Assembly (NCBI RefSeq): GCF_037392515.1
Contig: NC_090282.1
Span: 32,973,054-33,037,053 of the forward strand
From: Haliotis asinina
Lineage: Eukaryota > Mollusca > Gastropoda > Lepetellida > Haliotidae
Length of the DNA stretch: 64,000 nt
Direction of reading: 5' to 3'
The notes under the pieces are model-generated. The model was not told where the DNA came from, made no database searches, and saw only the letters and a program-made list of their open reading frames with translations. Below, piece by piece: positions 22,648 through 47,076 of this stretch. A program made the translations under genes and the position numbers. Each line of letters begins with the position of its first letter. The first letter of the stretch is position 1.

Positions 22648-24597
22648 TCATGTGTAGAAATGATGAAATGCAAGGAGGACATCATCATGGCTGCTCTCAA
22701 GCTGAGGATGTTGTTGTCTATTCTTCTTCTGTGCTAACATCTGAACATGATAATCCACACTTTCATGAACTGTCTTCAAGAAAACACCATCTGCTCTCAC
22801 AACTTCTCGTCTGAACTGCTGACACTGCCCACAACGTTCTTTTTCAAGGGGACACTTTGCATTCAATGCTTTTACAATGCTAAAAGTAAAGAAGCTATGG
22901 TCATAGTCATGGAAAGACTTCTCGTCACTTGTGGATGACGACCACTGGTACACACAGGTGTCTCCTCCTTTGGATCCAGTGTCATCCTGTATTTCATCCA
23001 GATTCCACAATTTTGGGACATATATTTCCGGATCAGTGTCATCTTTGGAGCAGCTACCTATTGACAATGAGAAATCCTCTTCATCAACCTCAACGGTCAT
23101 GTCTGCTCCAGCGCTATAGCAACAATCCAGAATGATAACAATCTTCTCCACATCCAACTTGCTGAGCTGTTGCTTCAATCTCCTTGGCGTGATTGTGTCA
23201 TTAGTTTTTCCCAATTTCAGTGACTTCTTGTCATTGTGCCCAGAGTAGAAGAAAAAGAAAACAGATGGACCCTTCTTTTTTTTGATCTTTGATTGCAGAT
23301 CAGAAAAGGCTTTAATCACTTTTTCGTACATGGTTCCTTTTGTACCTGGTGTCAGCACTTGGATGTTCTCGTTCCTGCAGCCAAAACAACACAGGAGGTT
23401 CATCATATACTGGATACAGGAATAATAAATGTTTCATTTCTCACTGAGCTATTTTGGAGTGTACTGAGAGGCCCAATTGTTAAAACTGTGAAACTCTATA
23501 TTAGAATTGGTCTTCAGCTACCCATGTTTGTTGTAAGAGGTGACTCACAAGATCCAATGGTCAGGTTTGCCAACTTGGTTGACATTCGTCAGTTGGGAGA
23601 TCGATGCTCATAGTGTTGATCACTGGATTGTCTTGTCCAGACAGACACATCATCAACAAAGTCACCAGTCTTGATCTATTGGTATCATTGTATGACCAGA
23701 ATAGGTTACTAAGGACCAATTCTAACCCATGGCAGTACTATCTTGTTGTTCTGAGAATCTTGGCAGTTAGAATTAAAAATCACTGATCACTGTCTTGAAT
23801 AGGTCACCAGTATAGGTCACAAGCATTGTTGAGAGATATCGCTACTAGACAGTTTAACAACAGGATCTACTTGCATAATTCAGTATGTATTTGTTGACAG
23901 TATAGTATATCTGAAGATTCAGGATGACAGAAAGTGGTTCAGCTTATGTGGATTTTAAGGGTCAGGCTAGGACTTAGATTATCAATGAGACTGGCATTCT
24001 TAATGTCATTTACTGTATTCAAAATACTAGAAACATCTGTCAAATCTTGTAATTTGTCAAAGTAAACACCCAAACTCATCACTTGCTTTTATTTCCTCGG
24101 TTACTACACAACAGAAAACAAACTAACATAAGGCCCTAGATTTCTTCTTAGTTGGTTTAAAAATTGTTTGACTTACCAAACTTACAGATAAGCACTGCTA
24201 CGAATCATAAAACAATCTTACCATGGAAAGAAAACAGAAGATAACTGTCAGGTTTTTTGCCAGGATGCTATATGTATTGTTCACAATTTGTAACAATGGT
24301 GAGATCTTGAGAGTCTTCCATTTACCTATGCTAAAAAGCAGAGTACAGAATGCATGTTTATTATTATTGATTTTTCCAATTAGTTTCTCATTTGAAGGAT
24401 TTTGTCAGACGATCTCATGAACCAAGTAAAGATATATTTCAGTGAGTAACCATGGTTACCATGGACTCACCTGACTCCGATGATGTCGTCACACTGTAAA
24501 GCTCTTTTCATATATTCAACATCCTTAACAAACATCTTCGCTACTTTTGAATTCTTGTCATGTCCAGCCACCAGTATAGCATATGTATTTTCATGAC
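22648..24597 (-). CDS. Caspase-like (peptidase C14) domain exons
   Basis: Exon 24597-24471 supplies the first strand and helix (YAILVAGHDK, then DVEYMKRALQ). Exon 23374-22648 supplies NENIQVLTPGTKGTM, then FFFFYSGH with His908, then IVIILDCCYSAG with the nucleophile probably Cys947 (aligned with DSCHSG of metacaspases and LDCCxSG of bacterial C14 proteins). Later come SSSTSDEKSF and HSFFTFSIVKAL, matching the small-subunit block of caspase-like proteins. The motifs are nearer metacaspase or bacterial-type C14 than animal apoptotic caspases (QACRG absent). The His/Cys dyad suggests an active enzyme. The domain ends close to the C-terminus with a His/Gln-rich tail. Confidence 0.87.
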
Positions 24598-27500
24598 CTG
24601 AAAAAACATGTTTCTACATATGAGTAGACTGAAATATAGATATAACACTTCAACCAAAAAGAGTTAAAAAACTGTCTTTAATATAACATGAACGAAGGGA
24701 ATATAAGGGAATAACTAATCCACTGCTCCAACAGCAGTCAATTTACTAAATCTGTACTTTTGCGAAAAATGTATTCTCCCATGATGTAAAGATGCATGAA
24801 ACTTTTTGGATGCCCTTACAAGATGGTTGACAATGGCTACAGAACCAGTACAAGCAAATATTTTCTACTGCTGTTCAAATAACTTCTCATTTATAACAAT
24901 GATGAATTAGTTTTTAACTTTTCATCCATACATCATCACATCTTATTTTCCCAAAATTCATAAACATGAATGAAATAACCGTTGTGAAAGTGTTCCCTTT
25001 GGTAAATATTTTGAGTGTTTTTGTTTGTTTGTTTTTTATTAATGTTGAACTCAGTAATGTTCCAGCTATATATCATGGTTGTGTAAAAGTAACAAGGGCA
25101 GATAACTCTAAATCAAAGTGAACGAATCTGGTACTTCCTGTATTTTGTGCTGCACATTTAAGTCAATATACTGTACTATCAAATAGTCACGTGTAGTATC
25201 GATGCATTGATACTTTTTCATTTCTACCACTAATTAACTGATATCAGAGACTCAACAATCCATCCATAGTTCAACACATTGCTACAGCCATATTGGCCTG
25301 GTGGAGATTGACCTGTAGTTAACCCCTGAATCTGCAACTGTCCCTACCTATTGGTGAGAAACACAGGCCATGTTTGGGACAGCGTAGTTGGTCACGTCGT
25401 CCAATCTTCAGACACTGGATACAAAACACTGCACAGTGATCACCACATTTCTCAGAGATGGGCTTCAGCTTTGCTATTAAGAAGAAAAACGAATGTTATC
25501 ACACTGAACAGTACACTGAATCATTACAACATTCCTACATGAGGACAATAATCACCCTTCAGTCACAGGTCAATACAAAGACAAAGGACAACCTTTAGGT
25601 GGTATTTTAGAAGTTGGGAAGTATATATACAAACAATCTTTATGGATAAAAACTTCTCCTTTTCCTGAATGCAACATTTCAATGCAGGTTCTTGACAATG
25701 GTACAATAATCCGTATTGAAACGTAGCACTCACAAAATAAAGAAGTTTCTGTCCATAAACTTTTTTTGTATACAAATAATATCTGCCAGCTTGATTTGGA
25801 AGAGGATGCTAAATATAAGAACCATAGTCACCTGCAGGAGCGTTCTTGCACCGGTGACAACCTGTAAGCAGACAAATTGAATGACAAAGTGCTACACCAT
25901 TGTAAAAGATGTGGTTATATCAACAATTTGACAAGGTGGACATGTAAAGTATTGAGTTTTAGCCAGGTTTTCAATAAACACAAAACAATGAACTAGTTTG
26001 GCAAGAGCAAAAAGCCTGACTTTTACAGTCGGCTAACTCATTTGCCTCAGAAGATTCCCATTATCAGTCAATTAAATAACCTGGGTTAAGAAGGTTTAAC
26101 AGGTGCTTATTATATACTTGCACAACAAACAAATCTTCTGACTACTTTTTCATTACAGAACTTGTGTGCACTTACAACATAACTTCAAAACTTCAGAACA
26201 TCCATTAAAAGGGCAGACTATGGGAGATAATCAACAAATATGTAACCAAGATACCACTCATCAGTCTACTCACATGTCAGACTGGTTTTATGTATATCTT
26301 TGTTCTTCTTCTCCTTGACTCTTACGTATTCTTCTTTACATTTGGTGCTGGTGTCAGGTGAGTCAACACACAGCCAGAACTTGCTGAGCACCTGAGTGTA
26401 GCCTGTGACTGTCTGGATGTAAGAAATGACGTACATGCTCACTCGCGTTGACAAAGCAGGGTCTCGTTGAAGGTCCTCTGAGCATAGCATTTAAAAGGAA
26501 ATGTTAGCAGTGTAAACTACTTCACACAGATACTATTTACATACAAAGCATACATAAGTAAAGATGTCACCTTCTCTTTTTTGAGAGTAATGAAATCATG
26601 CTGAGATACATAATGTCAAAATCATTCAAATTCAACACTGCTAATGGAAATGTGAGTTGTGCTTTAATGCTCCTCTGAACGGTACTCCATATTAATCAAG
26701 GGAGAAAACTCTGTCACAAGAATGTCACTACGACAACTGTGACCCCTATCCACTCAGGGAAATATTAGGCTGCAGTGACAATCACTACATCTTAACTGGT
26801 TTAGAAAGTGACAAAGTCAAAAAATGACAGGCAACTAATACGCACGTAATCATGAAGAGTTTAAAAAAATGTAGGACATTTCAGGAAACTGAGTCATTAG
26901 AGTGAGAGGCAGAAGAAACAAGACTACACACCAAAATACGCTACTGGAAACAGGACAACGCTGTTTTGTGTGGACTTCTTCCTGGCTTCTGCTTCTCCAT
27001 ACTTGATACACCTGAGCAGGGCGTTGGCCACCTGCACGTCAACAGCATGGTCATATTTACAGTGAAACACACTACCAGCCTTTGACAGCCCTCCACTTGT
27101 CTCAAACACCTTGTTGTGTGACAGAGATGTTTCTGTAAACAAATAAAAAATCAGTAGACACATCATTTTAATTTTTTCCATTTCTATATAAAACTGACAG
27201 TGAGTGAGTGAGTGAGTGAGTGAGTGAGTGAGTGAGTGAGTGAGAGCGAGTGAGTTTAGTTTTACTCCGCACTCAGCAATAATACAGGCGGCAGTCTGTA
27301 AATAATCCTGTCTGGGCCAGCATCGATCTGCACATTTGGGAACCGATGACATGTGTGAACCAAGTCAGTGAGCCTGACCACCTGATAGCGTTAGTTGCCT
27401 CTTGCGACAAGCATAGTCACCTTCTATGGCAAGCATGGGTTGCTGAAGGCCTATTCTACCCCAGGACCTTCATGGGTCAACTGACTCTAAATAACTAATG

Positions 27501-30500
27501 ACACAATTGTGTCTATTTGCTTTGTAACTCCCGTCAACAATATTCCAGTGGTTTGAACACAATTAGGCTGCACTTTAAAATGTAAATCTCATCTCATTCA
27601 TTCACCATGGTTGGACGGTGGGTTTCAGATTACATTTTCTGAAATGATAACTGTGAGATAACAAGTTCACAAAGAGACTGGCCTACACTTCTTATCCCCT
27701 GAATTCCTTTTTGATTGGTTGTTTCATGAAACCCCTTAGCACAAACTCGCAGGGAGTGGGCAGGTACGAGGTCTGTGATTTCTTGCCACATCTTTCATTA
27801 AAGGACAAATGACAGACCTTCGACCCAATTTCCATCAGGTCCTAGAATACAAAGGCCTCTCTGTCGTCAGTTCTAGAAGGCATGTTCTTCTGAACTGGCC
27901 CCAGCATCCACATCATTTGGGTGAAAGGCAAGAGAGCTTGTAAGCTCTCCATGCAATGTTTTGTCCTTGTAAAATGTGTTGATAATCCCTTCTCAATCCT
28001 AAGTTTAATCAGTGATGGTCAAGAAACAGGAGAGGAACTCCAGCACAAAATCTTGAATTAATACTCCACAAATGTGACTGCTCACATAAACTGATGATAC
28101 ACAGTATCAATAACCTCAGCATCATTGTACACAGTTGGCTTCCAGGCCAATAATGAAGTCACCAAAGATGACTGTGCCTGAACACTCCAGAAGACCCTTG
28201 GGTGAGGTTGATATGGTGAGTGAGTTGAGTGAGTTGAGTTGAGTTGAGTTGAGTTGAGTTGAGTTGAGTTGAGTTGAGTTGAGTTGAGTTGAGTGAGTGA
28301 GTGAGTGAGTGAGTGAGTGAGTGAGTGAGTGAGTGAGTGAGTGAGTGAGTGAGTGAGTGAGTGAGTGAGTGAGTGAGTGAGTGAGTGAGTGAGTGAGTGA
28401 GTGAGTGAGTGAGTCAGTTGGGTTTTACACTGCTTTTAACAATATTCCAGCAGTATGATTCAGGGGACACCAGAAATAGCCTTCACACATTGTAGTAGCC
28501 CTGTGGTGAATGGATTTCGAGGCCACTTTTTGGAAACTTCCAGCAAAATCATGGTGAGGGACTCCAGGATTGGGATTCATATTTCAAATGTTTTAACCAG
28601 TGGTCTTATCCTCTGCCCATACTAAGGAACTGACTACAACTAGTGGTCACATGTTCATGCAGGGACAGATCTTTTCAGGTTGTTTACTGTTGATAATAGA
28701 AGAGAAAGCGCATAACATGAGATAAGTTTAAAAAGTACTCACTTCTTATGAAAAAGCATGTGTTGTTGAAGACCAAGCACAACCGGGATCTTCATGATGG
28801 AAGACAATAGTGTTGTTTAAACATAATAAGTTGTGGTTAGCAGTACTTACTAAAAACCTCTCGGGTCTCAGTCACTTCTCCAATCTTATCCAGCAATAGA
28901 TGGTTTCCTGCAACAAGACTTGATGAATTACTCCTTGTGAAGGATGAGTGAATAATTATGCTTTACTGACACTCTGACACACTGATCCAGGATACCATGG
29001 AAACACATAGTCACATGATCTTCCATTATGCCCATTCAGGAGGAATGTGCCCTGAGTAACTGAAGGGTATGCATGGGGTCACTACTAACCAAGGTGACTG
29101 GTTGATGTTATTGATGTACTTTGTGCATTAACTAGTTAATATTTATCTTCAAACATTTACATAAGTAATTACTGAGTGACTGTCGTTCTACTGTTTGGAG
29201 ACATGGTGCTGACTGAGTTTAGTTTTATGCTACTTTTAGGAATATTCCACCAATATCAGGACGAGTAGGGGGGTGGGGAGGGGAAAGGAACACCAGAAAT
29301 GGGCTTGACACATTGCATCCATAGGGGGAATCAAACCCTGGTTTCCAGTGTGACAAGCAAACACTTTAGCCACTAGGCTACCCCACCATCCCTCAGTAGT
29401 ATTGAAATGAATTTTAATTCAAGGCTGGTTCACAAAATAGCATTATATGAATAAATAACATACTTGCACCTATTGAAAAAAAAATATATTTGTCTTTGAA
29501 ATATGTTTTTCTTACCTGTCTCAATATTGCGTTTATTCCACAGACAGATGATATAATCACATCGGATGCTGCACAAGTCAGTTTGCGCTAAGCACAATGG
29601 TTTCAAAGAAATCATCTTCTTTTCAGGTAACTGGCCATCAACCCATTCACCTGAATAAAGAGGGAGATAAGTATTGGCTCATTTCATGTAATGTCTCACC
29701 ATTTGGGTGGTATCACTTGGCAAATAGTAACAGTGACAAAAATACACAGAATGGCAATACATGCATCATGTTTAATGTAACCTGGAACAGTACATCCTCC
29801 TTGACTCAACATGGTCTAACGTGGAACAGAACAATCATCTTGGCCTCTGACTGGTCATGGTGTAACATGGTACAGAACAATCTTCTTGACCCACTACTGA
29901 TCATGGTTTAACACAGAACAGGACAATCTTCTTGGCCTCTGACTGATCATGGTCTAACAAGGATTAGAACAATCTTCTTGACTTCTGACTGATCATGGCC
30001 ATGGTCTAACATGGAACATGACAATCTTCTTGGCCTCTGACTGATCATTGTCTAACAAGGACTAGAACAATCTTCTTGACCTTGACTTCTGACTGATCAT
30101 GGTCTAACATGGAACATGACAATCTTCTTGACCTCTGACTGATCAGGGTCTAACATGGAACAGAACAATTGTCTTGGCCTCTGACTGGTCAGGGTCTAAC
30201 ATGGAACAGAACAATTGTCTTGGCCTCTGACTGGTCAGGGTCTAACAAGGTACAGAACAATCGTCTTGACTCACTACTGATCATGGTTTAACACAGAACA
30301 GGACAATTTTCTTGGCCTCTGACTGATTATGGTCTAACAAGGACTAGAACAATCTTCTTAACCTCTGACTGATCATAGTCTAACATGGAACAGGGCAATC
30401 TTCTTGACCTCTGAATGAGCATGGTCTAACATTGACCAGGACAATTGTCTTGGCCCTCGACTGATCGTGGTCTAACAATGGAGCAGAACAATCTTCTTGA

Positions 30501-32574
30501 CCTCTGACTGATCATGGTCTAACATGGAACAGAACAATCGTCTTGGCCTCTTGACTGATCACGGTTTAACATGGAACATGATAACATTCTTAACCTGACT
30601 GATCCTGATCTAACATGGAACATATCTTCTCTTTTCATCTGACTCACAATGGTCTAACATGAAACAGAAGAGCCTTCTTGGCATCTTACTTATTACCATA
30701 CAAGCACAATATAGACATGGGTTCAACATTTATAATTAACTGAATCACTTTGAAAACTCACTAAAGATGTTTTAATATTTGAACACAATTTACCACAAAA
30801 ATCAAATGACACATAGCCTCTATTAATGAATTCCCCTGCCACTGGTATGACAACTAAGGACATACTTACCTTGTTGTGCTGCATGAGCTGAAAGAGGTAC
30901 ATTTCCAGTACCCATACCTTCCCTGGAGTTGGCTCCAAGAGGTATTGATTCAGTGTCATCTTTATTTTCTTCCCCTGCAGTTGGCCTGGCTTTACTTCCT
31001 TGACCTTGCTCTCCACAGCTTTGACAAAGAGGATAGGTCAAGCTGGACACTGGCTCATCACACCCAGGTGACTCGCACACATCTGGTAGGGAGGACAATG
31101 AGGGATTACTTGCAAATCGAAGATCATGGGGGTAATATGGCTCTAATTGTTGAGTCCTACTTGGTGATTGAAGCTTCAAATCTTCGTAACAACTCATGCA
31201 GTAGGGCTCACATTGAGCCACACATTTCCGACCACATTTCCTCTGGCATTCCTGCTCAATCAAAGTAAACCCTGATGGCGAGCTGTAAGATCGTCTTATA
31301 TTCAGCGTTTGTCTGCTTTTTTCAGGTCTTTTTTCTCCAAACAATTTGTCTGAGGCGACAGGTTCATGGATGTCTGGTATCGTAAGTGTTTTCATGTTGG
31401 TAGGTTCTGATGCTCCTGCATATGGAGTGCTAGTATAGCCTCCAGGTCTGGGTTCCACTCCCTGAACCTGACTTCTGTTAGTGGTGCAATTACCAGATGC
31501 ACCGGAGTTGAGGTTGTTGCTTCCATTGTCATACAGATTCTGCTGAGCACAGTAACCCGGGGGCCCACTGGCATTACGTGTTCTCTCCTTTCCACCAGCA
31601 TTTCTGAAACATCTACTGCACAGGTAATTTCTTTCCAGCGTTCCAAAAAACCCACAGCCCTTTGTTCTGCACTGATTTGATAAAGACTCATTTCTAGTTG
31701 TTTGAGGTTTTTCAGGCTCCATTGTTAACATATTCAGATACTTTTTGAAACAACTGCTGCATTGTCCATTCTGTTCTGCAAGGCCGAAAAATTCACAGTT
31801 TGGTGTGGAGCATTTCAATTCACTCCCTATCGCATGTTCAGCCAAGGGAAATGATGAAGATGACTTCTTAATAACTGTCTTATCCATGATCTGACCAGCA
31901 CTGTAACACTTTCTGCAAAACCCATGCAACTTCTGATACCCAAACTCCTTACAATCAGTTACATGACACTCCTGGAAACTGGGCGTTTGCCCTTCACTAT
32001 CAACCTGTCCCAAGTAGCACTGAAGGCAAAGTCCATTGGCACTGGTACCTGAATTGCCACAGCCAGAAGTTAGACACTTTCTCCACACAGGATCCAAATA
32101 CTGACGTTCTGCACATGGTTTGGTATAGCTCCATTCTTGGGATGTTCCACTTGCCTCATGTTCCATAACTGAGCTCTGGGAATGGCTTTGACTTTGAAAT
32201 GTTCCAGTAAACTGACATTCACCTTCTGAATGAAGTGTGCCTATTTCATGTTTTCCCCGACAATCTTTACAGTAAAAGTCATATTTAGCAAAGCTGACAT
32301 TTTCACAATTAAGTGTCTTACATTTGTGGGGATGAGTGTTGTAGCATTCATTGCATAATTTTTCTTTCTCAATGCTTCCAAAGTTGGGACAATTTTCTAT
32401 CAAGCACTTGAAAGGGACAACAGGGTTTGATTCAACCACCAAATCTTCATAGTTTTGACCGAGTCCTATCTGTGGATTATCCTGTGCATGTTGACACATT
32501 TGACATCTGCCGTGAAATGCTGGGATACCCATACCAACACACTCAGAGTTGATGCATTCTCGGTAGCTCTCCAT
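22648..32574 (-). CDS. A20-type zinc finger / caspase-like fusion protein
   Basis: Nine exons, listed in transcript order: 32574-30870, 29650-29516, 28907-28851, 27132-26932, 26477-26274, 25861-25832, 25473-25348, 24597-24471 and 23374-22648. They give 3312 nt and about 1103 residues. Every junction is GT-AG and keeps frame; seven introns are phase 1 and the last is phase 2. Order of parts: eight A20-type zinc fingers and one irregular cluster (1-520), linker, unknown middle region (569-767), Cys/His finger (768-819), caspase-like domain (about 824-1075). A20 fingers bind ubiquitin in TNFAIP3 and relatives; C14 enzymes are Cys proteases of cell death and immune signalling. No OTU, death or CARD domain and no signal peptide is seen. 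Function is inferred only: a ubiquitin-directed, probably cytosolic protease or pseudoprotease. Confidence 0.85.
23505..23650 (-). repeat. Second-family repeat, inverted copy
   Basis: TGTTGTAAGAGGTGACTCAC, AGATCGATGCTCATAGTGTT and GATCACTGGATTGTCTTGTC match the reversed family. It lies in the last intron of the A20/caspase-like gene. The introns at 24598-25347, 25862-26273 and 26478-26931 hold nothing I recognise. Confidence 0.8.
25348..25861 (-). CDS. Cys/His-rich finger split over a 30-bp microexon (residues 768-819)
   Basis: Microexon 25861-25832 encodes CCHRCKNAPA. Exon 25473-25348 continues AKLKPISEKCGDHCAVFCIQC and then a CPKHGLCF end. Together they have CxxC, CxxxHC, CxxC and CxxHxxxC elements, so the module probably binds two zinc ions in a RING-like or zinc-ribbon fold. 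It sits directly before the caspase-like domain. A RING would suggest ubiquitin-ligase activity, but the spacing is not a standard RING, so I leave the fold open. Confidence 0.75.
25585..25770. mobile_element. MITE of the GAGGACAA family, divergent
   Basis: AAAGGACAACCTTTAGGTGG, CTTTATGGATAAAAACTTCT and AATAAAGAAGTTTCTGTCCA then TAAAC share the terminal blocks of the element at 7678. It lies in the intron before the 30-bp microexon. Confidence 0.6.
26274..29650 (-). CDS. Middle region of the A20/caspase-like protein (residues 569-767)
   Basis: Four phase-1 exons: 29650-29516 (EWVDGQLPEKKMISLKPLC), 28907-28851 (NHLLLDKIGEVTETREVF), 27132-26932 (KTSLSHNKVFETSGG through VVLFPVAYF) and 26477-26274 (EDLQRDPALS through KDIHKTSLT). 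I recognise no domain. The sequence has alternating hydrophobic and charged stretches, looks folded rather than disordered, and has only scattered Cys. It may be a helical or alpha/beta module between the finger array and the protease; a structure prediction would decide. Confidence 0.8.
27193..27478 (+). repeat. Second-family repeat, near full length, with (GTGA)n end
   Basis: Begins with (GTGA)n at about 27199-27243, then AGTTTAGTTTTACTCCGCAC, GGCGGCAGTCTGTAAATAAT, GGGAACCGATGACATGTGTG, TTGCCTCTTGCGACAAGCAT and AAGCATGGGTTGCTGAAGGC, ending near CTACCCCAGGACCTTCATGG. This is the best copy in the window. Confidence 0.9.
28217..28414 (+). repeat. Composite (GAGTT)n-(GAGT)n microsatellite
   Basis: About thirteen GAGTT pentamers (28228-28292) run directly into about thirty GAGT tetramers. 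A SINE tail (minus strand) follows at once, so the array grew from that tail. Confidence 0.95.
28415..28515 (-). repeat. SINE, partial inverted copy
   Basis: GGGTTTTACACTGCTTTTAA, CAATATTCCAGCAGTATGAT and AGCCTTCACACATTGTAGTA are reversed body sequence; the tRNA-like head is lost or replaced beyond 28520. Confidence 0.75.
29217..29395 (-). repeat. tRNA-derived SINE, inverted
   Basis: TTTAGTTTTATGCTACTTTT, AGAAATGGGCTTGACACATT, GGGGAATCAAACCCTGG (box B reversed) and CTTTAGCCACTAGGCTACCC mark a full copy with a G-rich insertion near 29265-29285. Confidence 0.87.
29780..30680 (+). repeat. 46-bp minisatellite in the A20/caspase-like gene
   Basis: About nineteen tandem units of TCATGGTCTAACATGGAACA then GAACAATCTTCTTGACCTCT and GACTGA. 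It fills most of the intron between the zinc-finger exon and the next exon. Two unit variants recur about 380 bp apart. Confidence 0.93.
30870..32574 (-). CDS. Exon with array of eight A20-type zinc fingers (residues 1-568)
   Basis: Eight fingers fit C-x4-C-x11-C-x2-C exactly, with first and last Cys at 7-27, 57-77, 85-105, 167-186, 203-223, 255-275, 302-322 and 500-520 (finger four is C-x4-C-x10-C-x2-C). An irregular Cys cluster lies at 443-462. Finger seven reads CRTKGCGFFGTLERNYLC, with the aromatic-Gly and Leu-Cys positions typical of the family. Human A20 carries seven such fingers after an OTU domain; here no OTU precedes them. The start ATG (32572-32574) has an in-frame TGA two codons upstream. 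Stretches between fingers are Ser/Asn/Gln-rich and probably disordered. The exon ends in phase 1 before gtaagt. Confidence 0.9.
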
Positions 32575-39537: not shown

Positions 39538-39574
39538 GGTGTCCCGTCATCGCCCCCTGCTTGGCTAGCCCGGC
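39538..39574 (+). other. 5' leader of the KLHL gene
   Basis: The segment between the acceptor and the start codon is untranslated, with an in-frame TAG. A first noncoding exon upstream must exist; one candidate ends at 38337 (TTGGCA|gtaagtg). No clear TATA box or initiator could be picked out near it. Confidence 0.4.
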
Positions 39575-39974
39575 ATGATCGAGTCTCGCAGCTGCTGCGT
39601 GCCAACACATGCCAAAAATGCTTTCGATGTTATGCAAGACCTGCGGCGGCAGCAGCAACTCTGCGATGTCATCCTGTGCGTGGATGGCGCCAAGTTCCAT
39701 GCCCACAAAGTGGTCCTAGCGGGCTGCAGCCCGTACCTGCGGGCAATGTTCACCAATGGGATGCTGGAGACAGACAGGGACTGTGTACAGATACATGGCG
39801 TGGAGCCGCCCACCATGGAGATGCTGCTGGACTTCATGTACACAAGTAACATTGAGATTAATGTGGAAAACGTACAGAGCGTTCTTCAAGGTGCCAGTCT
39901 CTTGGGACTACATTCTCTCAGGACAATCTGCTCACATTTCCTGCAGACCCAGTTGGTGGCATCCAACTGCTTGG
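39575..39974 (+). CDS. KLHL exon 1: BTB/POZ domain
   Basis: Residues about 12-117 form a BTB domain: NAFDVMQDLRRQQQLCDVIL, then FHAHKVVLAGCSPYLRAMF and LLDFMYTSNIEINVENV. The D and H/A-H-K-VLA-S-YF-AMF positions typical of KLHL BTB domains are present. The exon ends SNCLG in phase 1 before gtaagt. Its acceptor (at 39538) follows CACTCACTGATTGCAG, a short CTCA-rich tract, and the 37 nt before the ATG are leader. Confidence 0.93.
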
Positions 39975-42900
39975 GTAAGTTCAACATGTTTGGGTGGGTG
40001 GATGAAGTCTATTACGGAAGGAGTGTGCAGATATATATATAGTCTGGTTCATAATTATTGAGAATTTTTCTTCTTACTTTGAGCTATCCTAACACCTCAA
40101 CTGATTCACTGATACTTAAAACTAAGTAATGGTATAAGGGAGGTAACTCATCTTGGCCTACTGAGTATAGTACAATTAGAGTTACCTCCCCTGAATTTGT
40201 AGCAGACGTCATTTTCCTCAGCACTGTCAACAATGTCTGCTGAAGATAAAAGAAGGTTGATTTTTGAGTTGTGTAATCAAGGAATTGATGATGTAAATAC
40301 ATTGGCAGAGAGAACAGGAACTCCTCTTTCTACTGTGTATAGGATTAGGAAGAATTTTAAAGAGGGAAAGGATTTGGGGCACCAGAAAGGAGCAGGGAGA
40401 CCCAGAAAATTGGACTTCTCAGATCGCGTCCGGCTGGGAATTTTAGCGTCTAAAAAGCAAAGGGCAAGCATCTCCAACATCAGGTATGAAATGATAGAAA
40501 GGGGGTCAACAGTTATATCAAAATCTACAGTTAGAAGAAATTTGATTGATCTTGGATGGGAGAAAAAGACTGGAATTCCTTCTCCTCTCATGAAACAAGA
40601 ACATAAAGACAGGCGTGTTGAGTGGTGTTTGGCACATGAAAACTTTGACTGGGAAAATGTGATTTTTACTGATGAAAGCTCAATATGGGTATATCCCAAT
40701 AATGTGAAAATATGGACAAAGTCTGCGTCAGCACCGTTGTATCGACGACCTAAATACAGCCCAAAGTTTCATGTATGGGGAGGGATATCCTTATTAGGAA
40801 CGACCCCGCTGTGTGTGTTTGAGGGAAATCTGACAAGTCAACGCTACACTAACATATTAGATAATTTTCTCCTTCCAAGTGCACATGTGTTTTATGGAAA
40901 TGACTGGATTTTGCAGCAAGATAATGATCCTAAACACACCGCAAAACATGCCAAGCAGTCGTTTCAGGAGAAAAATGTGACTGCATTACCATTTCCTGCA
41001 TATAGTCCTGACTTAAATCCCATTGAGAACATTTAGGGGATGATGAAGGAATGTGTGAATCAAAAGGGGTTGACAAAAATTGAAGACATGAAGAGAGAAG
41101 TGGTCCGATACCGGGACAGCATAACTCACGAGACACTAACCTCTCTGATAGGAAGTATGCCTACCCGTCTTAGACTGTGCCGTGAAGCTCAAGGAGACTT
41201 GATAAAATATTAAATTGTTACCTACACAACATGAAAAGGTCAGTTCACTTTCACAATACATTCAATTTTATCTGATTTGTTCTCGTTTAATAATATGAAA
41301 TGCTTTAGCTATTCTCAATAATTTTGAACCATACTGTATATGTGGATGGATGAACAGGGGTTCAGTTTTTTTCTTAAAAGCCACTTGCCACTGGGCAAGT
41401 GACTTAAAGAAAGTAACTTGTCCTGACTAATTTTCCACTTGCCCTGGTTTTTATGACATAATCATGATGATGTAGGTATGAAAGAATAAATCAAAGTGGT
41501 AGTTGATTTTTAAAACCCTGATGAAGCCTAGTACAGAAGGATTGTGAGGATGTATTTAACTTTTTCTGTATTCTAGGATGGAAATAGCTGTACCACATAA
41601 CCATGACTCTATGGGAAGTACACTGTCTAAAAGTAAAAATATGTTAAACTGAATTGAAATATGATTTACCATGTCCTGATATTAAGAATAGTTGCTCCAC
41701 TTATCCCTAGGAGAGTTGGGTATGGCTGGTGGTTAGAGCATTCGCTCATCATGCTAAAGTCCTGGGTTCGATTTCCTACATGGTTATACCGTGAAGTCAA
41801 TGTCTGGTTCCCCTGCCATCATATTGCAGGAATAGTACTAAAAGCATTATAAAAGCCAACTCACTCACTCACTCACTCACTCACTCACTCACTCACTCAC
41901 TCACTCACTCACTCACTCACTCACTCACTCACTCACTCACTCACTCACTCACTCACTCACTCACTCACTCACTCACTCACTCACTCACTCACTCACTCAC
42001 TCAAAGTTATCCCTGATTGTGGCATCCAGGGCAGACTGACTCATCATGTCAACATGGTCGTAGTGGCTACACCCAATATTACTTTATACTTTCACACATT
42101 GTAGTTTTCGATGCAGTACCAACATGATTTCTGAGTACCAGACTACAGTTCTGTTGGGATTTGGTTGAAGTCTTACAATAAATGATTACTTTATAACCAA
42201 CAAGCAGTCATCAAAAGTAATTGGTTAGAGTCGTTTTTCTGATTTTCCTATTCAGGTTGTTATTCAGTCCCTCCTGGATTCTGCGATTCCACTGTTGCAG
42301 AAAAAATTGCGAAATTTACCTTGCCATGTAGAAAAACGTCTGGTCCGCGGAAAACGCATTTGCATGCAGAATCCATGCAGAATTTGCCTCTTTTGCTCAT
42401 TTTAATAACTGCATGAAAACTGACTGTCAGCCGAATCGAAAAATAGAACTAATGCCAAAAGTAGGGTTGGTTACACATAAAAAGGACGGACATATGTATT
42501 GTGACATTTCAAAATAATCATGATTAAAGATACTTCATTAATAAACAAAGTTTTAGGCATTTTTTAAATAATATAAGATGAATTTGACACTGCAATTACA
42601 TTCCCAAAATTGATCATTATGGAATTATTTCAGATTTCTTTTTGGTATAAAAATGTCTGCATGTAACCAAAAGTTACAATTGAGAGGAGAGAAATAACTT
42701 TCAGCAAGTGTTTAATTCTCAAACACAGAAAAAGGTGTGGGTGCTTTGTCACTCAAGATGTCATGTGTACTGTCGATATAACTTTATATCTGTGATTAAG
42801 AATTAAACTATGAAGGTCTGTATAATGTTTTGGTTGTTTTTTCTAAATGTTTAAGCCGCAGAATGTTTTGCAGAATATTGAAAAGTAGGGTGCAGAATTT

Positions 42901-45900
42901 GCTTAAATTTGCTGCGGAATTCTGAAAGAATTGTAGCGGAACCCAGGAGGGACTGGTTATTGCAGATGAGTATAACATGATGCAACATGATTTAATAAAG
43001 TGAAGACTAATATATTTAAGAATTAAACATGTTTTCAGGTCCTGACAACTCTGAAGCTATATTCCCTTCTCAAGTTTTTTCAAAGACTAGAACAGTAGTT
43101 CCAAAACCGTTTGTGGTAGCCTATGAGGAAATGTGATTGAATGCTTGGTCAGTTGTTCACTGCAACCAATCGTCTGTTATTTCAGTTAATTGGAACACCA
43201 CTAGATTACTGTATGGGGAGAAAGGGTAGAAAACTGTAATAGTTCAGTGTTCCATAATGAATTGAGTCCCTTAGCTCTTGCAGGAGCAGCAGATTATCGG
43301 TTCAGATTTCTCAGGATATGAGGTTTTCATAATTTTAAACAGTCTTTGTTACTCTACCCTTTCACATTGGACTGATCTGATACTCCATGGTGAAACTGAA
43401 ATAGTGTTAAAGGTTTTGTTCAGTTGCCATTGTACAAAGTAACCTTCGATCAGTTGCACGTCTATGTTTAGGTATGTCAGTATGATCTTAATCCTAGGAT
43501 GGCTTAATTCAGCGGCACCTATGTTTAACTTTAATCCTTCATCACATGCCTCCTGTAGCACTCCGGAAGATCTGATTAGAATTTGGCAACCCCTGGTTTT
43601 TGTTAGAGGTGGCTAATGTTATTGAATGAGCATACTCGTTGACACATTTCATCATATCCCAGTTGCGTCGATCATTGCTCATGCTGTTGATCACTGGATT
43701 GTCTGGTCCTGATTTACTGACTGCCACCATTTAGCTGGCATACAGCTGAGTGTGACATTAAACAACAAATAAACAATAAACAAACACAAACTGTAACAGA
43801 ATTCAGCTACTTACATCAGCTCTCCATGTTTGCAGGTATCCAACACTTTGCAGACATGTACACATGTACAGAGCTGGAAGCAATTGCAAGACAGTTCATC
43901 TATCAGAACTTTCTTGAGGTCGTGCGAACAGAAGAGTTTTTCGATCTTGCTGAAGAGAGGCTTCTCCAGTTGTTGAAAAGTGATAAACTTCAGGTGATGG
44001 CTGAGAGCCAGGTATTTGAGGCAGCATCAGCATGGTTGCAGTGGGACCCCGTGTGTCGTCTTGACAAAGCATGCACTGTTCTCCAGCACATCCGATTAGC
44101 GTTGCTGGAGTTGCCATACTTGGAAAACGTTGTGTTGAAATCCGAGTTTTTTCGTACATGTCCAAAGTGCCAGTTGTTCATCAGCAAAGCAATTCGAACA
44201 AAACAGGACATGACTGCCATGCAACTTGTGACCCCACGAGCCCAGCCCCCGTGTATATATGTGGTGGGGGGCAGGAACAGTTCGGACTGTCAGCTGAAGA
44301 GTGTGGAGAGATATGACTTTCTGACTGATCAGTGGATGTCCATGGTAGGAGCAACACTTGGCCGGAGAAGTGTCACACGAATACTGTCAACTTGTTGTGT
44401 GACAACAACTTATTTGTTGTGTTTTTACCATGTTAATGATGATCATTTGTTTTGAAGAAAGGGGAAAGAATGAACATAATGCACAGAAATGTTGTAAATA
44501 CTTTTTGCATCATAAAGAGATGGCATATTTTCCACAAATCCACAAATTTAAATGCAAAGTAATCGATCCTGGACCCTGTTCTGAACCTACTGTGTCTGGA
44601 CTAGATTTTGCTTTTTCCAAATTAAAACAGATAATTTTATTGATCATACTCACAATGCTTTCCCTGACTAATTCTCTGCATATTCCAGCCAAGTATGAAC
44701 ATCGCCCGGACAGCGGTAGGGGCCACCAGCTTGGATGGCATGCTGTTTGCGGTAGGTGGCGAGTGTGCGCTGGTCGACACTCAGGAGGACACTCTCTACC
44801 TCCGCTGTGTGGAGTGTTATGATCCAGTCATGAAACAGTGGATACCAAAGACAGAGATGAAGGTTGCAAGGTCATTTGTGGCAGTAGCTGCAGTGGCAGG
44901 GGTCTTGTATGCTATAGGTAAGTTGTCACACACTGCTATGGGTATATATAGGGGCTGGGAGTAGCCTAGTGGTTAATATGGTCGCTCGTCACACTGAAGA
45001 TCCGGGTTGAATTACCCACATGGGTACAGTGTGTGGAGCCAATTTCTGATTTTCATTGCCGTGATTTTGCTGGAATGTTTCTAAAACCTACGTAAGACAA
45101 AACTCACTCACTCACTCACTTTTATGGGTATATTGGTGACATGTTGTCTCACAGAAAGGGAGCACTTTTGCCAAAGTCAAACATGATGTAAGTATTCAAT
45201 ATGCAGACTTCTAGCGCTTGGATCCACCAGAAATTTGTGTTTGTGATGTACCCTGATTATTATTTTTCACTAGACTAGGTGAATGGTGTCACTGAAATAA
45301 TAAATGTCTGAGACCTGCATTGCTTTGGTATTTCACCACTGTGATATACTGTAGTACTGGGTGGTTTTAACATAGCCTATCTTTCACTCCCTCTGGTGGA
45401 GGTAAAGTAGCACAGTTACGATGTCTTAGATTTGAAGTGAAGGGACCACAATATCTTGTGATTGTGTGGATTGGATGTCCTTGTGCAAGGGCAGCATGTG
45501 ACTCATGCTATCAACCACAAGTCTTGATAGTTAGTAACTAACTTTTTACTTGACTTTTTCAAGTTTAGGACGTTTTCTTTAGAGAATAGTAGTATGTAGT
45601 GTGTGTAGTGTGGGGTAAAAGGTGGTTTATGAAATAAAGCTAAAGCGACCTTCACTTAAGTTTGACAACACATGTTACAACATGTGGAAGCTGAACTAAC
45701 CAAGATGGTGACACTATTCAAGGGGGTGAGGACCGATCATGCAGCTATAGCATCATGGAGAGATACGATCCCAAGACAGAGATGTGGTGTTTTGCTCCCA
45801 GTATGAAGAGGAAGCGGGCAGGCTCCGGGGTTTCTGTGTGTGATGGAAAGATCTACGTAGCTGGTAAGATAATGATCCGAACATCTTTATCCATTCACTA

Positions 45901-47076
45901 CCATATTTTGTAAGTTATATTACCTGGTCCACTTGTCTTATCAGTGGGGTTGTTGGGTAGTCTAGTGGTTAAAGCATTCGCTTAGCACTCCGAAGAGTTT
46001 GATTCCCCACTTGAGCACAATGTGGGATATTGCTGGAATTAGTTAACAGCGGTGCAAAACCTTGCTGACACACTCCCTTAGGAGAAGTATAGAAAGAAGG
46101 TAAAATGAATCATATCTGAACGGTTGGTTGAATCTCAAATTTGTAGGTCATTTGACACCAGTCTTGAGCTGTAGTGTTCAGGGCTGAAACACAGTGCACA
46201 CACATGCACATACACTTACTTACACAGAACAGTTGTTCATGTGGCTTCAGGTGGCTATGACAAGACATTGCACATGGACAGAGCCAGCGTGGAGTGTTTT
46301 GACCCAGATACTCAGGAGTGGACGTTCGCAGCAGAGATGGAGAAGGCACGGTCAGGGCTGTCGCTGGTCACTGTTGACCACTTCATCTATGCATTTGGGG
46401 GTCGCTTCAGACACACTGACCAGTACTTTGATCTCGTTGAGAGGTAGGAATTATCCCTCCATCTGCCTGCTTTGTTTTCACGATGACTTGAAGTTCCAGA
46501 TTTATGCTGAATTTATAGCACAAAATATATGACCCTTGTTTATTACTGCTCACGCTGTTGGGGCATGTTTGTAACGTCATGGGTCTGATCCATGAAATGT
46601 TTGTAGTATTATTTGTAACCTTGTGATAAAGTATCGATAGGTCATAAAGTTATGAATGCTATGCGGATTGGGGACCCTGATAGAATACAGTGGTTAATGC
46701 TGTTTAATGGTGCCTCAAATACTCCTTCGCCCTATTTGGACCATGTCTATATTTTACTTCCATTGACAATTACTACAAACGTACAAATGTTAAAACTTCT
46801 TGTGCATGGATATATTTTTCAGCCGTAGTCATTATGCATGTTTGATTGCACAGATTCAACACTCTTACCCGCCAGTGGACAACCATCACTCCAATGAACA
46901 CCCCCCGAGCTTGGCCAGGCATCTCTGTGTTCGATGGAAAGATCTATGTCGTTGGGGGCTTTGACGGCCAGAGTCGTCTAAGGAGTGCGGAAGTGTATGA
47001 CCCAGATGCTGATCAGTGGTCATTACTCAGCAACATGCTTGTCAGTCGAGCAGGTTGTGGTGCAGGTGTTGTGTGA
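39575..47076 (+). CDS. Kelch-like protein (BTB-BACK-Kelch), complete
   Basis: Six coding exons: 39575-39974, 43836-44344, 44689-44917, 45723-45863, 46251-46443 and 46854-47076 (stop TGA). They total 1695 nt and 564 residues, normal for the family, and all phases agree (1, 0, 1, 1, 2). A TAG two codons before the ATG, in frame, fixes the start. KLHL proteins are known substrate adaptors of cullin-3 RING ubiquitin ligases: BTB and BACK bind cullin-3 and dimerise, and the Kelch propeller binds the target. I cannot name the vertebrate orthologue; KLHL28 is similar in BTB-BACK from memory but not decisively. The first intron (3.9 kb) is packed with transposons. Confidence 0.93.
40039..41338 (+). 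mobile_element. Tc1-like DNA transposon in KLHL intron 1
   Basis: The element is about 1.3 kb with terminal inverted repeats of about 28 bp. The left end reads TAGTCTGGTTCATAATTATT and the right end, reverse complemented, reads TACAGTATGGTTCAAAATTA, both followed by TTGAGAAT. TA dinucleotides border it, as expected for Tc1/mariner target duplication. It inserted into intron 1 of the KLHL gene in the same orientation. Near-complete ends and a nearly open transposase mean it is young. Confidence 0.92.
40233..41213 (+). pseudogene. Tc1-like transposase with one in-frame stop
   Basis: The reading gives 326 positions: an N-terminal helix-turn-helix pair (TPLSTVYRIRKNFKEG), a GRPRKL motif, then the DDE catalytic domain with IFTDESS, WILQQDNDPKH and SPDLNPIEN. 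The second Asp (in QQD) and the Glu are 34 residues apart, giving the DD34E signature of Tc1. The frame is open from ATG to 41033, where TAG replaces the TGG of the usual IENIWG, and then open again to TAA at 41211-41213. All three catalytic residues precede the stop. I see no other break. Confidence 0.9.
41713..42003 (+). repeat. tRNA-derived SINE with 145-bp (CTCA)n tail
   Basis: Head GGCTGGTGGTTAGAGCATTC with box B GGGTTCGATTTCC, body CCGTGAAGTCAATGTCTGGT and CCCCTGCCATCATATTGCAG, then about 36 CTCA tetramers (41858-42003). In KLHL intron 1, plus orientation. Confidence 0.92.
42265..42955. mobile_element. hAT-like non-autonomous element in KLHL intron 1
   Basis: Inverted ends CAGTCCCTCCTGGATTC and (reverse complement of the right end) CAGTCCCTCCTGGGTTC. 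GTTATT lies directly outside both ends (42259-42264 and 42956-42961) as an apparent target duplication. Subterminal GCAGAAT motifs repeat near both ends, as hAT elements often show. About 691 bp, no transposase. Confidence 0.83.
43583..43775 (-). repeat. Second-family repeat, inverted copy
   Basis: GCGTCGATCATTGCTCATGC, TGTTGATCACTGGATTGTCT and ATTTACTGACTGCCACCATT, ending GTGTGACATTAAACAACAAA. It ends about 60 bp before the acceptor of KLHL exon 2. Confidence 0.85.
43836..44344 (+). CDS. KLHL exon 2: BACK domain and first Kelch strand
   Basis: GIQHFADMYTCTELEAIARQ opens the BACK domain, followed by NFLEVVRTEEFFDL and LLKSDKLQV with VFEAASAWLQW, all standard BACK blocks. The exon then enters the propeller with CIYVVGG and SVERYDFLTDQW, and ends in phase 0 at WMSM before gtagga. 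Confidence 0.92.
44689..47076 (+). CDS. KLHL exons 3-6: Kelch propeller
   Basis: With the blade begun in exon 2 there are six Kelch repeats, each with a GG doublet and a Y/F-D-P-x6-W signature: YVVGG, FAVGG, YAIGG, YVAGG, YAFGG and YVVGG. Two GG doublets (YAIGG and YVAGG) are split by phase-1 introns. The acceptor at 45723 has a weak tract (ACTATTCAAG) but is the only site that restores AIGGE. The protein ends VSRAGCGAGVV, the usual last strand. Confidence 0.9.
44950..45120 (+). repeat. tRNA-derived SINE in KLHL intron
   Basis: Head GGGAGTAGCCTAGTGGTTAA, box-B region GATCCGGGTTGAATTACCCA, body and a short (CTCA)4 tail. Plus orientation, 33 bp after the donor of KLHL exon 3. Confidence 0.88.
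45944..46080 (+). repeat. tRNA-derived SINE, internally deleted
   Basis: Head GGGTAGTCTAGTGGTTAAAG and GTTTGATTCCCCAC with the end TGCAAAACCTTGCTGACACA; part of the middle is missing. In the KLHL intron before exon 5. Confidence 0.82.

Follow-up and report, generated by a model that had tools for sequence, protein, structure and literature searches.

In vertebrates, A20 (TNFAIP3) and the paracaspase MALT1 are a substrate and its protease, residing on separate chains. The A20 fingers ZnF4 and ZnF7 bind ubiquitin chains (PMC9110840), and paracaspases are activated by dimerisation and cut after Arg, metacaspases cutting after Arg or Lys (PMC4357240). Type 1 paracaspases, of which bilaterians typically carry a single one, are defined by an N-terminal death domain and immunoglobulin domains (PMC5978004), and metacaspases, whose catalytic motif is DxCH (PMC5756287), are reported to be absent from animals (PMC4357240, PMC5756287). 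A survey of mussel caspases lists domain combinations with CARD, DED, DD, DSRM, FN3 and PB1; in the available part of its text A20 is not mentioned (PMC10967218). Here we describe a gene from a 64,000-nucleotide stretch of contig NC_090282.1 of the abalone Haliotis asinina (hereafter the window, with positions counted from its first letter) that encodes A20-type zinc fingers and a caspase-like peptidase domain of family C14 in one chain.

This A20-C14 gene is a real gene and a combination of known domains. An earlier reading of the window (the original prediction) had described A20 fingers joined to a caspase-like domain; both are present, but the description was incomplete, with a macrodomain and an apparent RING-like module lying between them, and the notion of a purely two-domain protein was abandoned once the macrodomain had been found. 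The protein would consist, in order, of 7 to 9 A20-type fingers, the macrodomain, the RING-like zinc module and the C14 peptidase. In the open-licence PubMed Central literature we found neither an A20-C14 fusion nor this domain order, nor any match to zf-A20 and Peptidase_C14 combined, in line with the earlier statement that no described protein of this kind was known; each of the domains is known, and the combination appears to be new.

Gene structure and relatives

Splicing the nine minus-strand exons, with splice sites placed by hand, from an ATG at 32574-32572 to a stop codon that ends at 22648 yields 1103 residues with a single stop at the end (table 1). All eight introns are bounded by GT-AG; the first seven have phase 1 and the eighth phase 2. 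An in-frame TGA forms the second codon upstream of the ATG. The product is identical over 1103/1103 residues to the NCBI protein P0001 (‘uncharacterized protein [Haliotis asinina]’); a separate annotation therefore arrived at the same gene model, and the predicted model of a single gene with nine exons of compatible phases is confirmed. Intron 1 carries a 46-base minisatellite of ~19 copies.

Relatives were sought among ~5.8 billion proteins by searches that require shared five-residue words, which distant relatives outside Haliotis may escape, within length ranges of ~607-1930 (C-terminal words), ~294-936 and ~607-1930 (words from the first 500 residues). The last of these searches missed P0005 despite its membership of the family and its in-range length, and the sensitivity is therefore imperfect. 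Within this scope the full architecture occurs in five proteins from four species, all of the genus Haliotis, namely P0001 itself, P0002 (H. cracherodii, 74% identity to P0001), P0003 (H. rubra, 83%), P0004 (H. rufescens, 48%) and P0005 (H. asinina, 43%); a place in an expanded immune repertoire of bivalves and gastropods, as had been surmised, is thus not supported so far. P0002 to P0005 align with P0001 across the finger, macrodomain, RING-like and C14 regions, the model of P0003 stopping at residue 986, past the catalytic motifs, and in most comparisons the domains are better conserved than the linkers. Judged by identity alone, P0002 and P0003 are likely orthologues and P0004 and P0005 likely paralogues. 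All matches of P0005 in the window fall on the A20-C14 gene, with no second copy within the 64 kb, and the equal length of the two contigs (89,013,229) suggests that P0005 may be encoded on the same chromosome as P0001. The record name of P0002, ‘isoform X2’, hints at annotated transcript variants in H. cracherodii. The family is easily overlooked, because C14 is absent from the Pfam labels precomputed for the Haliotis entries, all five of them. The sole match outside the genus is P0006 (jgi source), which shares the C14 domain (E 6.8e-7); it is a prokaryote-looking protein of 1096 amino acids with two YSGH-type segments and the Pfam labels PF00656, PF01650 and PF18962, the last of which we take to be a C-terminal sorting domain.

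Because proteins less than 50% identical share the domain order, the fusion probably predates the split between them, and it is unlikely to be an accident of annotation. The same comparison bears on the idea that gene prediction joined two neighbours, one encoding the A20 array (exon 1) and the other the macrodomain and the C14 domain (exons 2-9). Exon 1 indeed holds the entire array, its frame stays open for another 15 residues before the stop at 30823-30825, and ATTAAA occurs in intron 1 at 30776 and 29776. However, the GTAAGT donor of exon 1 is in phase with exon 2, and four species provide five models with this order, of which two are <50% identical to P0001, which makes an artificial joining very unlikely.

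The A20-type zinc-finger array

The strict pattern C-x4-C-x10-11-C-x2-C matches eight times in the 568 amino acids of exon 1, as originally noted, whereas 5000 shuffles gave 0.03 matches on average and never more than 2. An additional finger of a C-x3-C variant occurs at residue 443. Fingers are thereby placed at residues 7-27, 57-77, 85-105, 167-186, 203-223, 255-275, 302-322, 443-462 and 500-520. The Pfam family zf-A20 (PF01754) scores 24.6 bits on residues 1-336, above its cut-off of 21.6, and the array matches seven solved chains of TNFAIP3 or Zfand5 (E 0.007-0.05), which align to the fingers at 255 (four chains), 302 (two) and 57 (one); an eighth match, at E 1.9, is unrelated. Of the first seven fingers, P0004 and P0005 retain numbers 1, 4, 5 and 6 in the alignment, and the finger at 443 keeps 5/6 Cys in P0004 and 6/6 in P0005.

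Exon 1 thus encodes an A20-type array, which may bind ubiquitin, to judge by its resemblance to the solved fingers of TNFAIP3 and Zfand5. OTU, CARD, death-domain and immunoglobulin families are not listed in the Pfam scans (OTU: five members, E up to 10), which agrees with the predicted lack of the first three, and membership of the TNFAIP3/A20 family was rejected with the OTU domain missing.

The C14 peptidase domain

Peptidase_C14 (PF00656) scores 29.7 bits on residues 820-1103 (cut-off 21.4) and 31.7 bits in the P0005 piece. Both catalytic motifs of the original prediction were found in place, FYSGH ending at His908 and LDCCYSAG spanning 944-951, and His908, Cys947 and the DCCY motif are kept in 5/5 proteins. 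The modelled domain has the caspase-haemoglobinase fold that characterizes Peptidase C14 (clan CD), and, with regard to a p10 domain following p20 as in metacaspases, the fold alignment extends to residue 1094, but residues 947-1103 mostly have a predicted local distance difference test score (pLDDT) below 50. Profile searches of solved structures with the C14 domain gave weak metacaspase matches (E 0.17-0.57), and a single-sequence search with the C14 piece gave none at E up to 10; a Peptidase_C13 score in P0005 (20.3 bits, below the cut-off of 22.8) is consistent with the same clan. MvaI_BcnI, Shikimate_DH and the other sub-threshold Pfam matches were dismissed as chance. The domain is thus of the C14 type, keeps its His/Cys dyad and may be proteolytically active.

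MALT1 belongs to the same clan fold, Foldseek listing its chain 7pav_B with E 7.6e-3, and an oyster type 1 paracaspase cleaves human CYLD (PMC5978004), so the gene might be taken for a divergent form of MALT1, the type 1 paracaspase. Yet metacaspases and legumains stand above MALT1 in that list, and the death and immunoglobulin domains that define type 1 (PMC5978004) are not listed for the abalone protein; this identity is extremely improbable, and membership of MALT1 was rejected with those domains missing. MALT1 is not among the 50 matches listed for the whole-chain fold search, which carries no weight against a likeness to it.

A different possibility, compatible with the interpretation favoured below, is that the C14 domain does not descend from animal paracaspases but was acquired from bacteria (orthocaspase type) and later fused to animal fingers. 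The prokaryotic look of P0006, the sole protein outside Haliotis, points in this direction, as do the motif D-C-C-Y-S and the reported absence of metacaspases from animals (PMC4357240, PMC5756287). Relatives at 20-44% identity are also found at 49 bacterial loci, but these were picked by the motifs themselves from a collection without animals and offer no measure against animal genes. Moreover, an intron interrupts the C14 domain, and its neighbours in the chain are domains often found in animals; we consider a bacterial origin unlikely.

The macrodomain and the RING-like region

Residues ~580-766 have a macrodomain fold, judged from a model of the corresponding part of the paralogue P0004 (pLDDT 76.6; Foldseek E 4e-8), with PARP9 macrodomains among the matches. 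Profile matches of this middle domain to Atg3, Kalirin and Trio (E 0.08-1.2) conflict with the fold search and are therefore put down to chance. PYRIN, a death-fold family, scored 14.3 bits (cut-off 22.9) in the middle piece of P0005, where it overlaps the macrodomain, and was likewise dismissed as chance.

Further downstream, residues 769-815 include nine Cys/His (769, 772, 787, 791, 795, 798, 809, 812 and 815), all of them invariant in 5/5 proteins and spaced in a way compatible with the eight-ligand cross-brace of RING fingers; the predicted structure is unreliable there, and no Pfam family matches in the two pieces scanned. From this pattern we infer a RING-like zinc module. The protein might alternatively act as a ubiquitin ligase, A20-like or of the RING type, or shield ubiquitin chains, with a peptidase that is mainly self-cleaving or an inactive scaffold. 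Nine invariant Cys/His with RING-like spacing beside the fingers would suit such a role, a ligase function is reported for ZnF4 of A20 (PMC9110840), and the C14 scores are modest and not obtained in every member. On the other hand, His908 and Cys947 are invariant even in P0004 and P0005, despite identities of 48% and 43%, and the RING-like module has neither a Pfam match nor a reliable model, which leaves the ligase or shield rather doubtful in our view.

Possible function

Sequence or models establish how the gene is built, its A20 and C14 family membership, the macro fold (in the paralogue) and the conserved His/Cys dyad; ubiquitin binding, activation, the choice of the P1 residue and any role in immunity or cell death are proposals. 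With A20 fingers and a peptidase on the same polypeptide, the protein may be recruited to polyubiquitin, where crowding would bring about dimerisation and cleavage nearby. We favour, giving it an even chance, the interpretation that the abalone four-module protein is a ubiquitin-recruited, crowding-activated cysteine peptidase that cuts after Arg or Lys. The A20 fingers would attach to the ubiquitin chains of a signalling complex and so gather several molecules there; crowding would lead the peptidase to dimerise and become active; and the activated enzyme would cleave neighbouring proteins after Arg or Lys, with the macrodomain possibly providing a further place to dock, for ligands of the ADP-ribose type or others. 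Such a mode of working would be like that of MALT1 in the CBM complex, with the ubiquitin reader built in.

Several observations weigh against this interpretation. The profile check envisaged in the original prediction came out only in part, as the pieces 1-336 and 820-1103 score above the cut-offs of PF01754 and PF00656 and the whole chain fails both (zf-A20 at 18.3 bits, below 21.6; Peptidase_C14 unlisted). With E up to 10, a zf-A20 match is obtained for just three of the five full proteins (best 5.7e-6), and just two of five C-terminal pieces match C14, those of P0002 and P0004 giving none. The full-length model has a mean pLDDT of 34.4, with the fingers and the RING-like module below 50, as is most of 947-1103, Cys947 included. 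The macrodomain model is of the P0004 sequence, a paralogue rather than the window's own copy; the Pfam family Macro (PF01661) reaches 16.5 bits in the P0004 piece, below a cut-off of 22 that is a detection threshold and not a defining property of the macro fold, and has no match in the P0001, P0002 or P0005 pieces. Macrodomains carry glycine-rich loops for ADP-ribose; judged by eye, these loops do not appear to be retained, so the binding of ADP-ribose may have been lost. Finally, all five proteins are database gene models, and the better conservation of domains than of linkers is not uniform, the linker 526-576 of P0004 (45%) being conserved no less than the macrodomain (43%).

In a more specific version, which we hold to be unlikely, the protein is a dual reader whose fingers would read ubiquitin and whose macrodomain would read ADP-ribose or a hybrid ubiquitin-ADP-ribose mark, the C14 domain firing only where both coincide. 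If true, this would make it a lineage-specific immune or death switch of abalones that fuses parts separate in vertebrates. More generally, the abalone protein might be a protease of an unusual kind in immunity or cell death, and it is a candidate non-MALT1 C14B-like peptidase in a bilaterian animal. A natural fusion of A20 fingers, a C14 domain and a macrodomain also offers a simple test of whether ubiquitin chains can directly switch on a caspase homologue.

Other features of the window

The coordinates of the A20-C14 gene and of other features are collected in table 1. A Kelch-like gene lies on the plus strand, with an open reading frame for a Tc1/mariner-type transposase between its BTB and BACK parts. 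Two further plus-strand open frames are possibly exons of another gene, and long tetranucleotide arrays (GTGA, ACTC) occur at two places, with similar ones at two more.

Table 1. Features of the A20-C14 gene and of the rest of the window.
Feature	Position	Strand	Basis
Whole A20-C14 gene, 9 exons, 1103 aa	22648..32574	-	identical to P0001
Exon 1: A20 finger array, residues 1-568	30870..32574	-	spacing pattern, alignment, Pfam zf-A20
Exon 2: linker and macrodomain start (residue 580 at ~29618)	29516..29650	-	splicing, fold model
Exon 3 (57 bases): macrodomain	28851..28907	-	splicing
Exon 4: macrodomain	26932..27132	-	splicing, fold model
Exon 5: macrodomain end (residue 766 at ~26278)	26274..26477	-	splicing, fold model
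Exon 6 (30 bases): C769 and C772, the initial Cys pair of putative RING-like module	25832..25861	-	
Exon 7: remaining putative RING-like module (C787, C791, C795, C798, C809, H812, C815)	25348..25473	-	
Exon 8: N-terminal part of C14 peptidase domain	24471..24597	-	
Exon 9: C14 peptidase domain, both catalytic motifs, stop codon	22648..23374	-	
His908 codon (FYSGH)	23236..23238	-	invariant 5/5
Cys947 codon (LDCCYSAG)	23119..23121	-	invariant 5/5
Minisatellite in intron 1	29802-30690		
Long tetranucleotide arrays	28216-28418, 41859-42003		
Similar arrays	1913-2020, 27199-27255		
Kelch-like gene	39569-46444	+	Pfam matches
Kelch-like gene: BTB	39569-40039	+	
Kelch-like gene: BACK and Kelch repeat	43721-44452	+	
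Kelch-like gene: Kelch repeats	44668-44961, 46175-46444	+	
Tc1/mariner-type transposase	40203-41033	+	DDE_3, 49.4 bits
Open frame, 188 aa	1793-2356	+	no Pfam match at E up to 0.01
Open frame, 236 aa	5245-5952	+	no Pfam match at E up to 0.01

Comparison with known systems

The abalone protein shares with TNFAIP3 the A20-type finger array, solved TNFAIP3 fingers matching mainly those at 255 and 302, but it has no listed OTU domain, and its fingers lead instead into a macrodomain and a C14 peptidase. The combination of a macrodomain with a ubiquitin-related module is reminiscent of the PARP9/DTX3L pair and of PARP14, none of which, to our knowledge, includes a caspase-like peptidase. With MALT1 it has in common the C14 peptidase fold and the His/Cys dyad, together with a predicted Arg-type P1 preference, whereas it differs in possessing A20 fingers and a macrodomain and no listed death or immunoglobulin domain. 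From metacaspases and bacterial orthocaspases it is set apart by the motif DCCY in place of DxCH, and by its occurrence in an animal, where the peptidase is fused to A20 fingers and a macrodomain.
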